Part shown: piece after piece, positions 4,361-14,959 of the stretch
Layout of the letters: each line of letters begins with the position of its first letter
Position numbering within the stretch: the stretch's first letter is position 1
Assembly (NCBI GenBank): GCA_958296125.1
Contig: OY282444.1
Location: 2,413,940 to 2,477,939, forward strand
Reading direction: 5' to 3'
Source: an uncultured Poribacteria bacterium
Lineage (GTDB): Bacteria > Poribacteria > WGA-4E > PCPOR2b
Length of the DNA: 64,000 bases
Program-made: the position numbers and the translations under genes
Notes under the pieces: generated by a model
Seen by the model: the letters and a program-made list of their open reading frames with translations, nothing else
The model's database searches: none
Told to the model about the DNA's origin: nothing

Positions 4361-4959
4361 CTCCTATCGGTTATTTATTCAATTTGTTTCGTTCAGACAG
4401 AAGCAAAGTACGGATTTTCTGTGAGATTACATTGAAAAAAATGACATGCAAGGTTTTTACCACTGATTTTATCGCATACATCTGTGAGTAATTTGACAGT
4501 GAATTTTGACGGAATTGAAGATCGAAAGTTTAGACTGAAGATGAGAGGCTGTATCGAGAAGTCTATTAATCCAATAGTATCACTGGTGGGAAAACCCCTA
4601 CCCCAAATTGAATGAAGAGTGCGGTCAGACGGTTAGCCAGATCTGAGAAGCCTAATTTTTCCTTGCAACACCTTAACGAATTCTGCTACACTTATTTTAA
4701 TCTAAGTTGCTACCTACCAGAAATTGGGAGCTTTTGCATCTTTTTGGGTGTTCTGCATTGCGTGCCATTTATCAACTCCACTCGGCTTGGGGAATGGGGC
4801 CCGATGCTGCAATCGGGATTCAAAGCAACTTGGTAAATCGGAAACTTTACATACGCCCACCCCAAATTGACAAATCCAAGCCATCTCTCATTATCCCGCA
4901 GGGTCAAAAACCGATTTTTTTTGGCTTTTACGTTTTACACTTTGCATATTATGGGGTAA
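4361..4959. other. Intergenic region between divergent transcription units
   Basis: About 600 bases separate the minus-strand exporter operon from the plus-strand gene at 4960, so promoters for both must lie here. The stretch is AT-rich. Short open frames on both strands have no ribosome-binding site and no recognisable protein pattern. I saw no RNA gene and no strong consensus promoter. Confidence 0.5.
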
Positions 4960-6648: not shown

Positions 6649-6806
6649 TGTCGGTGAAATCCCGACGATGCTAAGGTGTGTCAAGCAGCTGCAATCACGG
6701 CCTCATATCAGGGCGATTCAAAGCACCTTCTATTGAGGCATGACTGATTTTCGGCTTCCTGAATTCTGACAAGTTCGGCTACGCTCAAAGCGGCAAAGGG
6801 GATAAA

Positions 6807-7787
6807 TTGATTTTCTTTTTTGGCTTTAAGATTTTAGGTCGTAGACAATACCAAAACCTGCTTAATCAGCAAAAAGATCTGCGTCACGAACTCCATGAAC
6901 TTGAGGAGAACTTCAAAGCGCTGAAAACACAGAAGGGTGAACTTGAGGCACTTCATCAACAGGAAACCTCCGCGCTCAACCAGCAATTGGAAACCCTTCA
7001 GCAGACAAGTCAGGACTATGAACGGCTTCAGCAGCGCATCACGGAAGATATGGAGAGTGTGACAAAAGAATTTGGGATGAGTCGAACGCAAATTGAGGCA
7101 CTCTGGGCGGATAGATTGCATCTGATTGACCTGTATATTGATAAACTTTACTCACTCGCAAAGGGCTTCGCGCGCACCAACCGGGAAATGAAAAAGAATC
7201 GCGGGTTGTTTTTATTGCTAGTAGACCGCCGAAATATGGACCATGACAATTTCTCGGAATTTTACGAAGGTCAGATGGAACACTTAATGGAGAGACAGTA
7301 TCAGGGAATCAATCAGATTCCCCAGATTTTTTCTCCTAAAATCAATGAGATATTTAGTTATATGGGGGAAAAGGTCATCTTAAAGGACAAAAGCGGCGAA
7401 ATTACGGGACATGAAGAACGGGATGGCGCAATACTTGTCGATCTGAGTGGGGTCGCCTTTAGATCTCGTATTATGGTGGAAGGGGTGCGGACCCATCGGG
7501 TGTACGACAAGGTGGAACGTTTACAAAAAGGAAGTGCGAGACACAATGCTGCGATTTACGCTTCATCGCTTGATGAGATTATGGTGTCGATTGTGATTAG
7601 CGAGGAAACGAGTGAGGTCACGCTCTTCCGGGATGGACGCTTCATAGAGAGCTATGACCCTTACACCGATCAAGAGACGTTGCGTGAAGAGAAAGTGGTG
7701 TCCATGAAGCGCAAAGAAATTTCGGAAGAATCGCTAAACCGGGAACTCCAACAGGAAGAAACGGTGACTCAAGCATTCACCGAATGA
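6807..7787 (+). CDS. Coiled-coil protein with C-terminal diadenylate cyclase-like (DAC/DisA_N) domain
   Basis: 326 residues starting at TTG 6807 behind AAGGGG. The N-terminus is short and hydrophobic (IFFFGFKIL), then a coiled coil spans about residues 15-95. Residues about 190-285 resemble the DAC fold that makes c-di-AMP from two ATP: D206-G207-A208 (DGAILVD) matches the DGA motif, S243-ARHNAA matches the (T)RHRAA motif, and ISEETSEVTLFRDG matches the VSEETGxIS tail of CdaA-type enzymes in the same order and spacing. The second Arg of RHR is Asn247, so activity is not certain. I infer c-di-AMP synthesis or binding. It follows the PEGA protein on the same strand after 158 bases. Confidence 0.72.
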   Translation: MIFFFGFKILGRRQYQNLLNQQKDLRHELHELEENFKALKTQKGELEALHQQETSALNQQLETLQQTSQDYERLQQRITEDMESVTKEFGMSRTQIEALWADRLHLIDLYIDKLYSLAKGFARTNREMKKNRGLFLLLVDRRNMDHDNFSEFYEGQMEHLMERQYQGINQIPQIFSPKINEIFSYMGEKVILKDKSGEITGHEERDGAILVDLSGVAFRSRIMVEGVRTHRVYDKVERLQKGSARHNAAIYASSLDEIMVSIVISEETSEVTLFRDGRFIESYDPYTDQETLREEKVVSMKRKEISEESLNRELQQEETVTQAFTE

Positions 7788-8103: not shown

Positions 8104-8142
8104 AACCACTCGGAAGCCTGTGAAACATTGAAAGGTCGAACG

Positions 8143-11100
8143 ATGATACGTCGAGTAGCCCCCTTATTTCGCAAAATATCGGTCATTATTACAATAATGA
8201 CATGGACAATTTGTCCCACGCTTGCGGGCGAGCGTGACGAATATATTTTTGCCTACAAACTCTTCCAAGAGGGTGCCTATTTCATTGCTAAGGATGCGCT
8301 TAAAGCATTCATCCAAGACTACCCACAGAGCGCAGATGCCGATGATGCACGTTTCCTCATGGGGGAATGTGCACTGCAGCTTGAGAAATATGACGAAGCA
8401 ATCCAGCATTATAAACAACTCCAGATTGATTATTCGGACAGCCCATTGCGTTTAGATGCGGTTCGCGGCACGGCAGCAGCTTGGTTCCATCAGGGTAGAT
8501 ATGAAGAAGCAATCAAGGCTTACGAAAAAATTGTCGAAAGTTCAGACGATGCCTCCGTCATCTCCCATAGCCTTTATCTCATTGGCGAGTCTTATGACAA
8601 CTTGGGGCTCTACCAAAAATCCTGTGAATATTACGAGCAGGGCCTCACTCAATATCCCCAGTCAGACGAAGCATCAGATGCCCTGTATGCAAAAGGTTGG
8701 AGCCTTTACAGACTTAAAAAATATGGCGAGGCATACGATACGCTGACGGATTTCATCAAAAAATATCCTACCCACTACGCCATCCCAGAAGCTTCCTACC
8801 GTGCAGCCGAATCCCTGTTCAACCTTGGCGATTGGGCAAAGGCACAACAAGCTTACCAGCAGGTCATTGACACCTACCAGAAAGACAAGGTGCACCAGCA
8901 ATTTGCCATAGATGCGCGATTCAGACTCGGTGAGTGTTATTTCCAGCAGGAGTTGATGGCAGCGGCGAAAAACACGTTTGAGCTCTTACTGCGCGAGCAT
9001 GGAAACTCCCCCATCGTCGCGGAAGCGCAATATTGGATTGCCGAAGTTTTGTTGGAAGAGCAGAAATATCCTGAAGCGATTCATGAATATCAAAAAGTTA
9101 TCACGCTTTACCCACAAAGCGAGGTTGTCGATGATGCCCAATACGGAATTGCGATGGCGCATTTTCTAAAAGGTGACTATGCCAAAGCAGGCGGTGAATT
9201 CAAGAGGGTTGTAGATAACCGGCGTTCCGAACTCACCGATGCAGCCCGCTTCCGCTTGGGCGAATGTTTCCGCTTGCAACGAGAGTTTAATTCTGCCCTC
9301 CTTCACTATAAGAAGGTGGACACGAAATCCGCTTACACAGATGACGCACTCTATGGGAGAGCTACCAGTGCATTTGAACTGCGAGACTATTCGCAAACTA
9401 TTGATGTGCTGAATGCGCTGTTGAGTTCCCAGCCATCCAGTCCACTCAGACCTTATGCCCTTTATCAACTCGGAGTCGCGTATTTTAACCAGAAGGCGTA
9501 TCAAGAAAGCTCCCAAGCCTTTGATAGCTTCCTATCCGAAAACCGTGATACCAACTTGGCAACTGCCCCTACTGATGAGGCACTGTTTTGGAAAGCGCGC
9601 GCCCGGTTTGAGCTAGAAGATTATTCAGAAACCCTCCAGGCCTGTGAGGAATTGCTTCAGCGTTTTCCAAATAGCCGCCTGCGCTATCGGGCAGAATTCT
9701 TTATCGCGGAAAGCACCTATTGGCGTGAACAAACCCCGCAAGCCTATCAATCGGCGCGTCAAAAATATCAAGCCTTGCTGAAGAAACAATCACAGATTGC
9801 TCCCGATGCTATTGATGCCGAGTGGGCTGAAAAGTGTCGCTATGGAATCGGTTGGACCCACTTCTCTGAGGCAACGCTCTCAAAAGACACCGCCGAGCAG
9901 CAAAAACATTATCGAGAAGCAGTATCGGCTTGGAAGGAGGTGCTTGCAAATCACGCGAAAGGTGCGCTGGCGGACAAAACGCAATACCATATCGGTATCG
10001 CTTATGTCAATCTCAAACAGTATGATAACGGAATTCAGACTTTCAAACAGGTACTTTCGGACTACTCCGGCAGCAAGTGGAGTGACAATGCACGATATCA
10101 GACGGGATGGGTGCTTTATAAGCAGGAAAAATATCCCCAAGCGATTGCCGCCTTCAATGAAATGCTCAAGGTGCACCCTGGGTCGCAGCTTGTGCCGCGA
10201 GCCATTTTCGGTATCGCCAACGCCTACTTCAAGCAAGGAAAATACGCGCAAGCGATTCGTGAATATCAACGGGTGGTTGACAAGTATCCCAATCCCATTC
10301 GCGAGGCGGGTGCTGAAAAGGCAATCGATCTCCGTCCAGAGGCGCAATACTATATCGCAGAAAGTTTTTTGAACCTTCAGAATTATCCCGACGCAATCGC
10401 CGCTTATCAACAGGTGCTCCAGCATCACCCCAAAAGCGAGTGGGCGGACGATGCACAATACGGCATTGCAACCGCCTACGAAAACTTGGGTCAAAAAGAG
10501 AAAGCGATCCAGGCCTATCGAACCCTGACGCAGAAATACCCCAACCGTGAACTGGCCCCAGATGTCCAACTCCAAATTGGGCGCTTCTACTATAATGAAA
10601 AAGACTATAAACGGGCGATTGCTGAATTCCAAAACGCGATTAACCAATATCCCAATACCCCATCGGCGTGGCTAGCGCAGTACAACATCGGTAAATGTTA
10701 CATTGTGCTGGGGTCTTACCGTCAGGCAATTAGGGCATTTGAACAGGTTGACACTAGGAGCGAGTTTGCAGCCACCGCAGCGTATGAAATCGGTTACGCC
10801 TGGTATGATCAGAATAATCCGAGCCGAAATCTTGGTAACGCAGTGAAGGCACTTCTTGCCGTACCTGAGCAATATCCGCAAAGCGCGGATCTCCCCCGCG
10901 CCCTATTGCTCGCCGGTGAGTGCTACAAAGAGTTGGTCGAATTGGACAAAGCTGCTGAGGTATACCATCGCCTCCTAAACGATTACCCGAGGTCGGAGCA
11001 AGCGCAGGGGGCGCAGTTGGCTTTGGGGGACACCTATCGCGCCCAGAAGAAGTATCAGCAAGCCGCTGCGGCCTACGATGTGATTCGGGAAAAGGGAACG

Positions 11101-11454
11101 GAGCAATACTCCGTTGACATCGTAATCGACGGGTTGCTCCGTCTGGCAGAAACGCAAGCACTGATGGGGAAACATAAAGATGCCGGCACAACTTATCTGC
11201 GTATTCGCTACTTGTACAAAGACGATGATCCGTTCAGGGCATTCCAAGCAACCGTTTATGCCGCCGATGCCTTTGCCAAAGCTGGTGAGACCTTAACTCA
11301 ACCGGCATACACCCATCAGGCGAAGGATGAGTATGAGAACGCGATTGAGTTTTATGAATCGAATGTTCAACAAGTGCAGGACGCAGGGGAACGGAAGAAA
11401 TGGGACGCGCTATACGATTATGCGAAGACCAAATCGCAACAACTCTTCGAGTAA
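8143..11454 (+). CDS. Large periplasmic tetratricopeptide-repeat protein
   Basis: I take ATG 8143 (AAAGG seven bases upstream) rather than the in-frame TTG at 8128, giving 1103 residues. A signal peptide ends near TLAGE. The rest is an almost unbroken run of TPR units of about 35-40 residues, many with the Tol-Pal/YbgF/BamD-like pattern of a Y-x-x-A-I helix followed by YPxSxxADDAxYxIG, for example QYPQSDEASDALYAKG and HPKSEWADDAQYGIA. Such solenoids bind partner proteins in the periplasm. The gene begins a same-strand set with a beta-barrel, ExbB/TolQ, TonB and a TPR lipoprotein, so a role in outer-membrane energisation or assembly fits. No catalytic domain is visible. Confidence 0.88.
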   Translation: MIRRVAPLFRKISVIITIMTWTICPTLAGERDEYIFAYKLFQEGAYFIAKDALKAFIQDYPQSADADDARFLMGECALQLEKYDEAIQHYKQLQIDYSDSPLRLDAVRGTAAAWFHQGRYEEAIKAYEKIVESSDDASVISHSLYLIGESYDNLGLYQKSCEYYEQGLTQYPQSDEASDALYAKGWSLYRLKKYGEAYDTLTDFIKKYPTHYAIPEASYRAAESLFNLGDWAKAQQAYQQVIDTYQKDKVHQQFAIDARFRLGECYFQQELMAAAKNTFELLLREHGNSPIVAEAQYWIAEVLLEEQKYPEAIHEYQKVITLYPQSEVVDDAQYGIAMAHFLKGDYAKAGGEFKRVVDNRRSELTDAARFRLGECFRLQREFNSALLHYKKVDTKSAYTDDALYGRATSAFELRDYSQTIDVLNALLSSQPSSPLRPYALYQLGVAYFNQKAYQESSQAFDSFLSENRDTNLATAPTDEALFWKARARFELEDYSETLQACEELLQRFPNSRLRYRAEFFIAESTYWREQTPQAYQSARQKYQALLKKQSQIAPDAIDAEWAEKCRYGIGWTHFSEATLSKDTAEQQKHYREAVSAWKEVLANHAKGALADKTQYHIGIAYVNLKQYDNGIQTFKQVLSDYSGSKWSDNARYQTGWVLYKQEKYPQAIAAFNEMLKVHPGSQLVPRAIFGIANAYFKQGKYAQAIREYQRVVDKYPNPIREAGAEKAIDLRPEAQYYIAESFLNLQNYPDAIAAYQQVLQHHPKSEWADDAQYGIATAYENLGQKEKAIQAYRTLTQKYPNRELAPDVQLQIGRFYYNEKDYKRAIAEFQNAINQYPNTPSAWLAQYNIGKCYIVLGSYRQAIRAFEQVDTRSEFAATAAYEIGYAWYDQNNPSRNLGNAVKALLAVPEQYPQSADLPRALLLAGECYKELVELDKAAEVYHRLLNDYPRSEQAQGAQLALGDTYRAQKKYQQAAAAYDVIREKGTEQYSVDIVIDGLLRLAETQALMGKHKDAGTTYLRIRYLYKDDDPFRAFQATVYAADAFAKAGETLTQPAYTHQAKDEYENAIEFYESNVQQVQDAGERKKWDALYDYAKTKSQQLFE

Positions 11455-13275: not shown

Positions 13276-13989
13276 ATGGGCAATCTGATTGAGATGATTA
13301 CTTCAGGATTAGAACAGTTGGGTGGGGGTGGGATCCTTCTCATCCCCTTGATTGGTTGTTCGATCTGTGCACACGCGATTATTATGGAACGGACTTACCA
13401 TTTGCGTCGTGAGCGAATCATCCCATCACAGTTTGTGACCCGTAGCATCTACCATGAACTCGTGCAGGGGAATTCCGATGCCGCGATCCAGATGTGTGAG
13501 AAGCGGCCGGGGCCTTTGACAAATGTCCTCCGTGCCGGGATAGAACGCAGAGATGCCGATGAGGAAACGCTCAAACGGATCGTCCGTTTATCCATCAACG
13601 GCGAAAAACCGATCCTGACGCGATACCTCCATATTTTGGGAATGCTGTCTGCTGTTGCGATATATACAGGTTTACTCGGCACATTTCTCGGCATGATAAT
13701 CTCATTTGGCAACCTATATGAGGTGAGCGGACAGGTGGGGCAGTCGAGTGAGATTGCTGCGGGCATCTCGCAGGCCTTAATCACAACAGCTGCTGGATTA
13801 ATGGTCGCGCTACCAACGTATGTCGCGTATTACTATTTCAACAGCAAGGCACAACTCTTTTTAACAGAGTTGGAAAGACACGGCATGTCTCTGGTTCGCT
13901 TCCTTGTCGCCGACGAACACAAGTTGTTTCAGGAAGGGTTTGAAGATATTCAGAGTTTAATCCAAGGCTCATCTCAAAAGAAAGTGTAA
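13276..13989 (+). CDS. MotA/TolQ/ExbB proton channel protein
   Basis: 237 residues with the ExbB/TolQ plan: a first membrane helix near residues 17-37, a cytoplasmic segment, and two helices in the second half containing LSAVAIYTGLLGTFLGMI and ISQALITTAAGLMVALPTYV, the conserved channel motifs. These proteins form pentamers that use the proton gradient to drive TonB or TolA. The usual partner ExbD/TolR is not adjacent: the next gene is TonB-like. The partner may be encoded elsewhere. Confidence 0.92.
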   Translation: MGNLIEMITSGLEQLGGGGILLIPLIGCSICAHAIIMERTYHLRRERIIPSQFVTRSIYHELVQGNSDAAIQMCEKRPGPLTNVLRAGIERRDADEETLKRIVRLSINGEKPILTRYLHILGMLSAVAIYTGLLGTFLGMIISFGNLYEVSGQVGQSSEIAAGISQALITTAAGLMVALPTYVAYYYFNSKAQLFLTELERHGMSLVRFLVADEHKLFQEGFEDIQSLIQGSSQKKV

Positions 13990-14062
13990 AGCGCAAATAG
14001 AACCCGTAGGGTTCTGTTGCACGATTTCTCAACATGAGCCTAACCCAAAAGGAGGTCAGCTG

Positions 14063-14959
14063 ATGAGCACGCGAGGTGAAGTTAAACTCAGTGCTTTTGT
14101 TGGGATTGCAATCGTTGAGCATCTGCTTCTTATTCTGGCGTTAGCTATGGCAGCCTATACAACCCCTGTGTCAAAGGTTAATGACACAGCCATAACTGTG
14201 GACATCTTGATAAATGAACCGGAGCAGAAACGTATTGAAAAGGAAATCCCCATCGCTATTTCTCCGACTCGGCAGCCCGACATACCTGCCGAATTGCCGC
14301 CAATCCAATCTGCCTATAATGTCCAGCGATATCTCAATCCTGGCGGTCCGTCGGGAGGCCTGCCGACCCGCGCCCTAGCACGGACGAGCAATCAAGATCC
14401 GAATCGCTTGGCGTTAGGGGCAGCCCCTTCACAAGGCCGAAATCAGACGCTAATCGATGATTTGGAAACCACGAATGCAACGGTCCGGGAGAAACCACTA
14501 GTTGATAAGGAGGGATACCACGGTGCCTCGGCTCGTCGAGGTGTACGAGATGCGGAGCGGCTGAGACCCAGCGGGGAACGTGGACACAACTTGACCCGGA
14601 ATGTCTCTACAGGAAACGTGACCCATACCGGGCAAAGTCGTGTGACAGATGGTGTTGGTTTCGAGTTGGAGATCTCCGGTGAAGTCAGCGGACGCGGCTA
14701 TCGTTTGGGAAAACCCATTCAAACAAAAGGGAAACAAGGCGGAGGTGTCCAGATCAGTTTCAAGGTGAGACCAGACGGCACGGTGTACGATGTTCGAGTA
14801 AAACCCGGTTTTCTAACGACGGTAGGCGAAGTTCGACTCAAAGAACAGGCCAAACGATACGTCGAAAGAATTCGATTCAACACCTTATCCAAGAAGGCAC
14901 CGCAGGTTGATCAGTCCGGGGAGATTTTCATTAATTTCACAACGCAATCAAGCAATTGA
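14063..14959 (+). CDS. TonB-like energy transducer
   Basis: 298 residues preceded by AAAAGGAGGTC. One N-terminal membrane helix (about 9-32, VGIAIVEHLLLILALAMAAY) is followed by a long extended periplasmic region rich in Pro, Arg and Thr. The C-terminal domain (about 215-295) resembles TonB C-terminal folds: GGGVQISFKVRPDGTVYDVR and VERIRFNTL. TonB carries energy from ExbB/ExbD to outer-membrane receptors. Location right after the ExbB gene supports this. The central linker lacks the Pro-Lys/Glu-Pro repeats of enterobacterial TonB. Confidence 0.78.
   Translation: MSTRGEVKLSAFVGIAIVEHLLLILALAMAAYTTPVSKVNDTAITVDILINEPEQKRIEKEIPIAISPTRQPDIPAELPPIQSAYNVQRYLNPGGPSGGLPTRALARTSNQDPNRLALGAAPSQGRNQTLIDDLETTNATVREKPLVDKEGYHGASARRGVRDAERLRPSGERGHNLTRNVSTGNVTHTGQSRVTDGVGFELEISGEVSGRGYRLGKPIQTKGKQGGGVQISFKVRPDGTVYDVRVKPGFLTTVGEVRLKEQAKRYVERIRFNTLSKKAPQVDQSGEIFINFTTQSSN

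Follow-up and report, generated by a model that had tools for sequence, protein, structure and literature searches.

Open reading frame 6807-7787 of an uncultured member of the Poribacteria probably encodes a new class of diadenylate cyclase (DAC) within a known enzyme superfamily, with its activity predicted from sequence. The gene lies in the window, the stretch of 64,000 nucleotides analyzed here (G000:C1:2413940-2477939, from a genome of 5.16 Mb in one contig). The reading that we favor, based on sequence comparisons and structural modeling and held with reasonable though far from complete confidence, is a Poribacteria-specific diadenylate cyclase in which a coiled coil would bring two DAC domains face to face to convert 2 ATP to c-di-AMP. 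Few DAC classes are known, each with a different regulatory partner domain. If this reading is correct, a further class as distant as the known ones are among themselves would bring a new mode of c-di-AMP control, and the c-di-AMP signal would extend to Poribacteria, for which no c-di-AMP study was found in the literature searched.

Gene and domain architecture

ORF 6807-7787 is a real conserved gene whose product has a coiled coil and a helix in front of a complete DAC domain (Table 1). Its sole relevant Pfam match is to DAC (PF02457), at E-values of 2e-5 to 4.5e-5 and 23.5-25.5 bits, and spans residues 205-278 only; since the score is below the cut-off of 27, a standard annotation threshold would miss this protein. 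Individual matches to Pfam DAC were obtained for 19 of the 20 family members, and the relatives in G002, G016, G064 and G066 score above the cut-off. Sequence searches of the PDB using phmmer gave weak DAC matches only (E 0.03). An AlphaFold model of the full-length protein built from 12 rows reached a pLDDT of only 58, and the trimmed domain (region 86-296, 20 sequences) was used instead, with a pLDDT of 80 and a pTM of 0.82. The best 50 PDB matches of this modeled domain identified by Foldseek were all diadenylate cyclases (CdaA, CdaM, DisA, CdaS), with E-values of 1.2e-5 to 5.9e-4 and a probability of 1.0. These alignments cover 164-202 columns, corresponding to the whole domain, and TM-scores to known DACs were moderate (0.34-0.48 on the query). 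DAC matches were therefore found both by profile and by structure. Orthologues were identified in 20 of the 85 genomes of the phylum, and dN/dS values of 0.07-0.21 (pairs of the window, close relatives and one genome of the same family) show purifying selection. Together with the Pfam matches and the DAC fold, these results indicate that this feature is more than chance.

The initial annotation had described a DAC-like domain behind a coiled coil of about 80 residues, with the segments DGAILVD, ARHNAAI and ISEETSEVTLFRDG. All three segments are present as described, and the domain order agrees with the profiles, the fold and the helices modeled by AF2. The coiled coil itself is also supported: the helical part comprises about 125 residues, about 72 of which look like a coiled coil, because AF2 places helices at residues 3-89 and 93-124, and in residues 19-90, which are free of proline, hydrophobic positions recur every 3.55 residues with a power reached by 2 of 2000 shuffles. 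DGA and (V/I)SEE motifs accompany the DAC fold, and the literal RHR motif is absent (RHN). In the alignment, the segment from DGA to RH is 5-7 residues longer than in other DACs.

The reading frame starts with TTG, and most close relatives have an ATG one codon downstream, at which position the window has ATT. A TTG start is plausible because of the AAAGGGG found 5 nt ahead of it and the position of the ATG in relatives. The N-terminal tip has a pattern common to the family, [FI][KR][ILF][LIM]...Y..L.

Table 1. Features of the coiled-coil DAC-like gene and its upstream neighbor; positions are those of the window and residue counts refer to the 20 family members.
Feature	Positions	Strand	Basis or remark
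Upstream neighbor, caspase-like + PEGA + C-terminal membrane helix	4960..6648	+	
Shine-Dalgarno-like AAAGGGG, kept in close relatives	6795..6801	+	5 nt 5' of TTG
Whole gene, coiled-coil DAC-like protein, 326 aa	6807..7787	+	ORF, relatives, dN/dS
N-terminal tip (MIFFFGFKILGRRQYQNL), short hydrophobic/amphipathic motif	6807..6860	+	putative function
Coiled coil, residues about 19-90, length differs among relatives	6861..7076	+	
Conserved helix, residues 93-124, joins coiled coil to DAC core	7083..7178	+	
DAC domain, residues about 130-290	7194..7676	+	
NRGLFLLL, counterpart of GALI motif (adenine side of pocket)	7197..7220	+	
DGA motif, D206-G207-A208	7422..7430	+	D 20/20, G 20/20, A 19/20
EGVRT, conserved family-specific stretch in DGA-to-RH segment	7479..7493	+	
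RHN (R245-H246-N247), counterpart of RHR	7539..7547	+	
SEE motif (S265-E266-E267), phosphate + metal ligands	7599..7607	+	S 20/20, both Glu 20/20
C-terminal tail, variable, probably disordered	7695..7784	+	relatives, AF2

In the mechanism that we propose, the conserved N-terminal tip would anchor or dock the protein and the coiled coil would dimerize or oligomerize it. Opposed DAC domains would then join 2 ATP into c-di-AMP, and E267 would hold a divalent metal. Catalysis, its product, oligomerization by the coiled coil and a coupling to the upstream membrane protein are parts of this model that we infer. A structural protein which kept the DAC fold and does not bind nucleotides could also have a coiled coil and a disordered tail and be encoded next to a membrane protein whose caspase domain is degenerate, yet the most conserved columns include nucleotide-binding ones, and we regard this possibility as very remote.

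Active-site residues

The active site of CdaA is formed by the side chains of Leu31, Asp71, Thr102, Arg103, His104, Ser122 and Glu124 and by the main chains of Leu88, Gly101 and Glu123 (PMC7288161). In the new family, the residues predicted to contact ATP and metal (DGA, R/K-H, SEE) are nearly invariant (Table 1); the RH columns hold Arg in 13 and Lys in 7 of the 20 members, followed by His in 19/20 and Arg in 1/20. At the position of Thr102, which contacts phosphate in CdaA, 19/20 family members have Ala, and DacZ has Ala or Ser.

The suggestion that catalysis may be lost because the motif reads RHN is not supported by this argument, since the ten active-site residues of CdaA given in PMC7288161 do not include the third Arg of RHR, which is also absent from the DacZ-type domains examined. 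This position is Arg in 31/34 CdaA and 27/30 DisA sequences (the rest being Lys, Leu or Gln) and Ala, Ile, Met, Val or Trp in 16/16 DacZ-type domains examined, so a literal RHR does not define the DAC superfamily. DacZ of H. volcanii makes c-di-AMP in vivo (PMC6741144), an activity that we link to the third-position residue by class and not via the sequence of that particular protein. In DisA of M. tuberculosis, replacing RHR by AAA led to loss of both ATP binding and activity (PMC3328451), but this triple change takes away the Arg and His that the new family keeps. RHR should not serve as a test of an active DAC, given that the DacZ-type domains examined also do without the third Arg.

The protein could instead be a catalytically dead DAC working as a sensor of ATP or c-di-AMP, in which case the coiled coil would relay the signal. 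The altered RHR, the change of Thr to Ala before RH and the longer DGA-RH segment are in line with such a role, which we consider unlikely but worth weighing: the catalytic Asp and His hardly vary, nor do the two Glu, one of which is the metal ligand, and a pure sensor need not keep these residues; the third Arg is missing in the DacZ-type domains examined too. Retention of the putative ribose-binding Asp and metal-binding Glu argues for catalysis over a pseudoenzyme, without proving catalysis.

Distribution, c-di-AMP turnover and gene neighborhood

The 20 genomes carrying the gene belong to families f1, f2 and f4 to f8, and named relatives are all Candidatus Poribacteria. Members share as little as 49% identity over the DAC region. 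Outside the phylum, a sample of 302 bacterial genomes gave three weak matches only, all of which were rejected as family members; those in G179 and G317 are DacZ-type and the one in G214 is a DAC with the RHR of CdaA type. No relatives were found in plasmid records, phage records or viral structures. In the samples searched, the family is restricted to Poribacteria.

A search for other DAC genes in the genome of the window returned ORF 6807-7787 as the only DAC match, and no other DAC was detected in the genus of the window. Elsewhere, the new gene was found together with CdaA (G062, G070) or with a DAC of 354-377 aa and thus of DisA-like length (G008, G063). It is therefore not simply a substitute for these enzymes, and their coexistence in several genomes would also suit a sensor. 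The f3 genomes have no copy of the new gene and mostly have DisA instead; in f3 genomes such as those of L036 and L032, no DAC other than DisA was detected, nor was PgpH above cut-off or GdpP. G006, from the same family as the window, keeps the window gene order without the DAC gene (L192 3485-8615), a clean case of presence and absence, and has no DAC match at all. A hidden diverged copy after the neighbor gene was looked for in f3 and G006 and not found. The deeper phylum members G059 and G060 (L077, L078, L089, L095) have CdaA, and one of them also has a DacZ-type DAC.

PgpH (PF07698) was detected above cut-off in ten phylum genomes belonging to f5, f6, f7, f8 and f10. It is present in 6/6 f7 genomes with complete HD-domain motifs (domains of one confirmed). 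Four of these (G064, G066, G067, G069) combine PgpH with the new gene as their one intact DAC; the two f7 genomes in which no DAC was matched are 61% and 79% complete. For this reason, the new gene would be the best candidate for a c-di-AMP source in f7, if c-di-AMP is still turned over there, and the same observation speaks against a pure sensor. A decayed, frameshifted DacZ-like remnant with several frame changes was observed in G066 (L113 around 4637-4786; G066:C125:16636-16785), which keeps the new gene and PgpH.

In the genus of the window, searches that covered PgpH and GdpP among phosphodiesterases and the ydaO-type riboswitch among c-di-AMP receptors found none of the three. The case for c-di-AMP in this genus therefore rests on the protein itself, and the absence of PgpH and GdpP is a further point in favor of a sensor. 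Across the phylum, a c-di-AMP riboswitch was found in G059 only.

The upstream neighbor has a signal-like N-terminus and a caspase-like domain that has not retained the canonical His/Cys dyad; a His is present in one member and a Cys one residue early in two. It directly precedes the new gene in f1, f2, f4 (one genome, L075) and f6. The gap between them ranges from an overlap of 8 bases (L075) and a spacing of 4 bases (L069) to 329 (L099). In the window's own genus it is 59-191; the window itself has 158 bases up to the TTG. Small or overlapping gaps suggest an operon in some lineages. The neighbor gene was identified in 78/85 phylum genomes, f3 included, and because it is nearly universal its product probably belongs to the core envelope proteins of Poribacteria. 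Since no copy of the new gene follows it in the f3 genomes read, and the gene directly after it in G006 is the one that comes next in the window's order, functional coupling to the DAC-like protein can be offered only as a hypothesis. The pairing of CdaA with its extracytoplasmic regulator CdaR would be an analogue of the proposed coupling. A more detailed version of the favored reading is a phylum-specific c-di-AMP synthase that is the sole c-di-AMP source in some Poribacteria, is controlled through its coiled coil and possibly by the upstream envelope protein, and occurs in genera without PgpH and GdpP, the usual c-di-AMP hydrolases. We put this forward tentatively, as a possibility that may well not hold in full.

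A reading as a defense system, based on the caspase-like neighbor, was rejected: PADLOC was not significant for the DAC-like protein and gave no better than E 0.004 for the neighbor, a gene of 78/85 genomes without the His/Cys dyad. Further downstream, 8128-11454 encodes a 1108-aa protein with the look of a TPR-repeat protein; the genes after it resemble an ExbB/TonB-like set (13276-14959), and the order of neighbors is conserved in the genus.

Relation to known DAC classes

While hhalign against a small mixed alignment gave a probability of 7%, class-wise profiles gave a clear result. The family matched DacZ over the whole domain (E 1.2e-10), CdaA over the C-terminal half (E 8e-8) and DisA at E 0.11; among themselves, the known classes matched at 4e-18 (CdaA-DacZ), 7e-11 (CdaA-DisA) and 5e-10 (DisA-DacZ). 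By profile, DacZ/CdaZ is thus the nearest class, at a distance typical of that between known DAC classes. A tree built from 63 domains sets the family apart as one side of a branch with support of 100/100 and a length of 5.2 changes per column, vs 4.9 for DisA. It is drawn on its long branch beside the DacZ rows with attachment support of only 22/65, and on these sequence comparisons it is therefore a separate class with DacZ affinity, not a demonstrated member of DacZ. The early proposal of a distinct DAC class in this phylum is supported by these distances, by the clade and by the 20 genomes.

Class-level divergence could also mean that the protein is an active nucleotide cyclase with a different product, either another cyclic dinucleotide or a linear one, and the family-specific conserved EGVRT and ERDGA context beside the active site would fit. 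We consider this quite improbable, as the characterized DAC-fold relatives in the literature cited make c-di-AMP and PgpH, a c-di-AMP hydrolase, accompanies the gene in f7.

Compared with known systems, the favored diadenylate cyclase shares the DAC fold with DisA, the DAC of sister family f3; the linker and HhH domains of DisA are absent from the window protein in domain profile searches. CdaS likewise has a helical N-terminal part followed by a DAC domain, and is among the fold matches (2fb5). However, its N-terminal domain is autoinhibitory, where the window protein has a helical stretch of about 125 residues that includes a coiled coil, and the NCBIfam CdaS model scored 13.5 bits, far under the cut-off of 225. 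With CdaA, which provides the top Foldseek matches, the protein has in common the DAC fold, DGA, RH and SEE. CdaA differs in having RHR and three N-terminal membrane helices (PMC5508000; PMC6741144 for the architectures of CdaA, CdaM and DacZ), no such helices being present in the window protein, for which the NCBIfam search reported no match to TIGR00159 (CdaA).

DacZ and DacY-CdaZ, a class of archaea and some bacteria, have the motif A/S-R-H-x, with x not Arg, as does the new family, and a Phe and a Gly after the S-E motif (V-x-x-F-x-x-G) are common to DacZ and the family. In contrast, DacZ has SES where the family has SEE, its DGA-RH segment is shorter, and its N-terminal pyruvate-kinase-C-like (PK_C-like) domain (PMC6741144) is replaced in the window protein by a helical coiled coil. 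CdaM shares the DAC fold, and 7dfx and 7dg0 are among the best fold and sequence matches; no match to NCBIfam CdaM was reported for the window protein. CdaM is a lineage-specific class described as Mycoplasma-specific, with its own N-terminus and one membrane helix (PMC5508000), and the new family resembles it in being a lineage-specific class with an N-terminus of its own.
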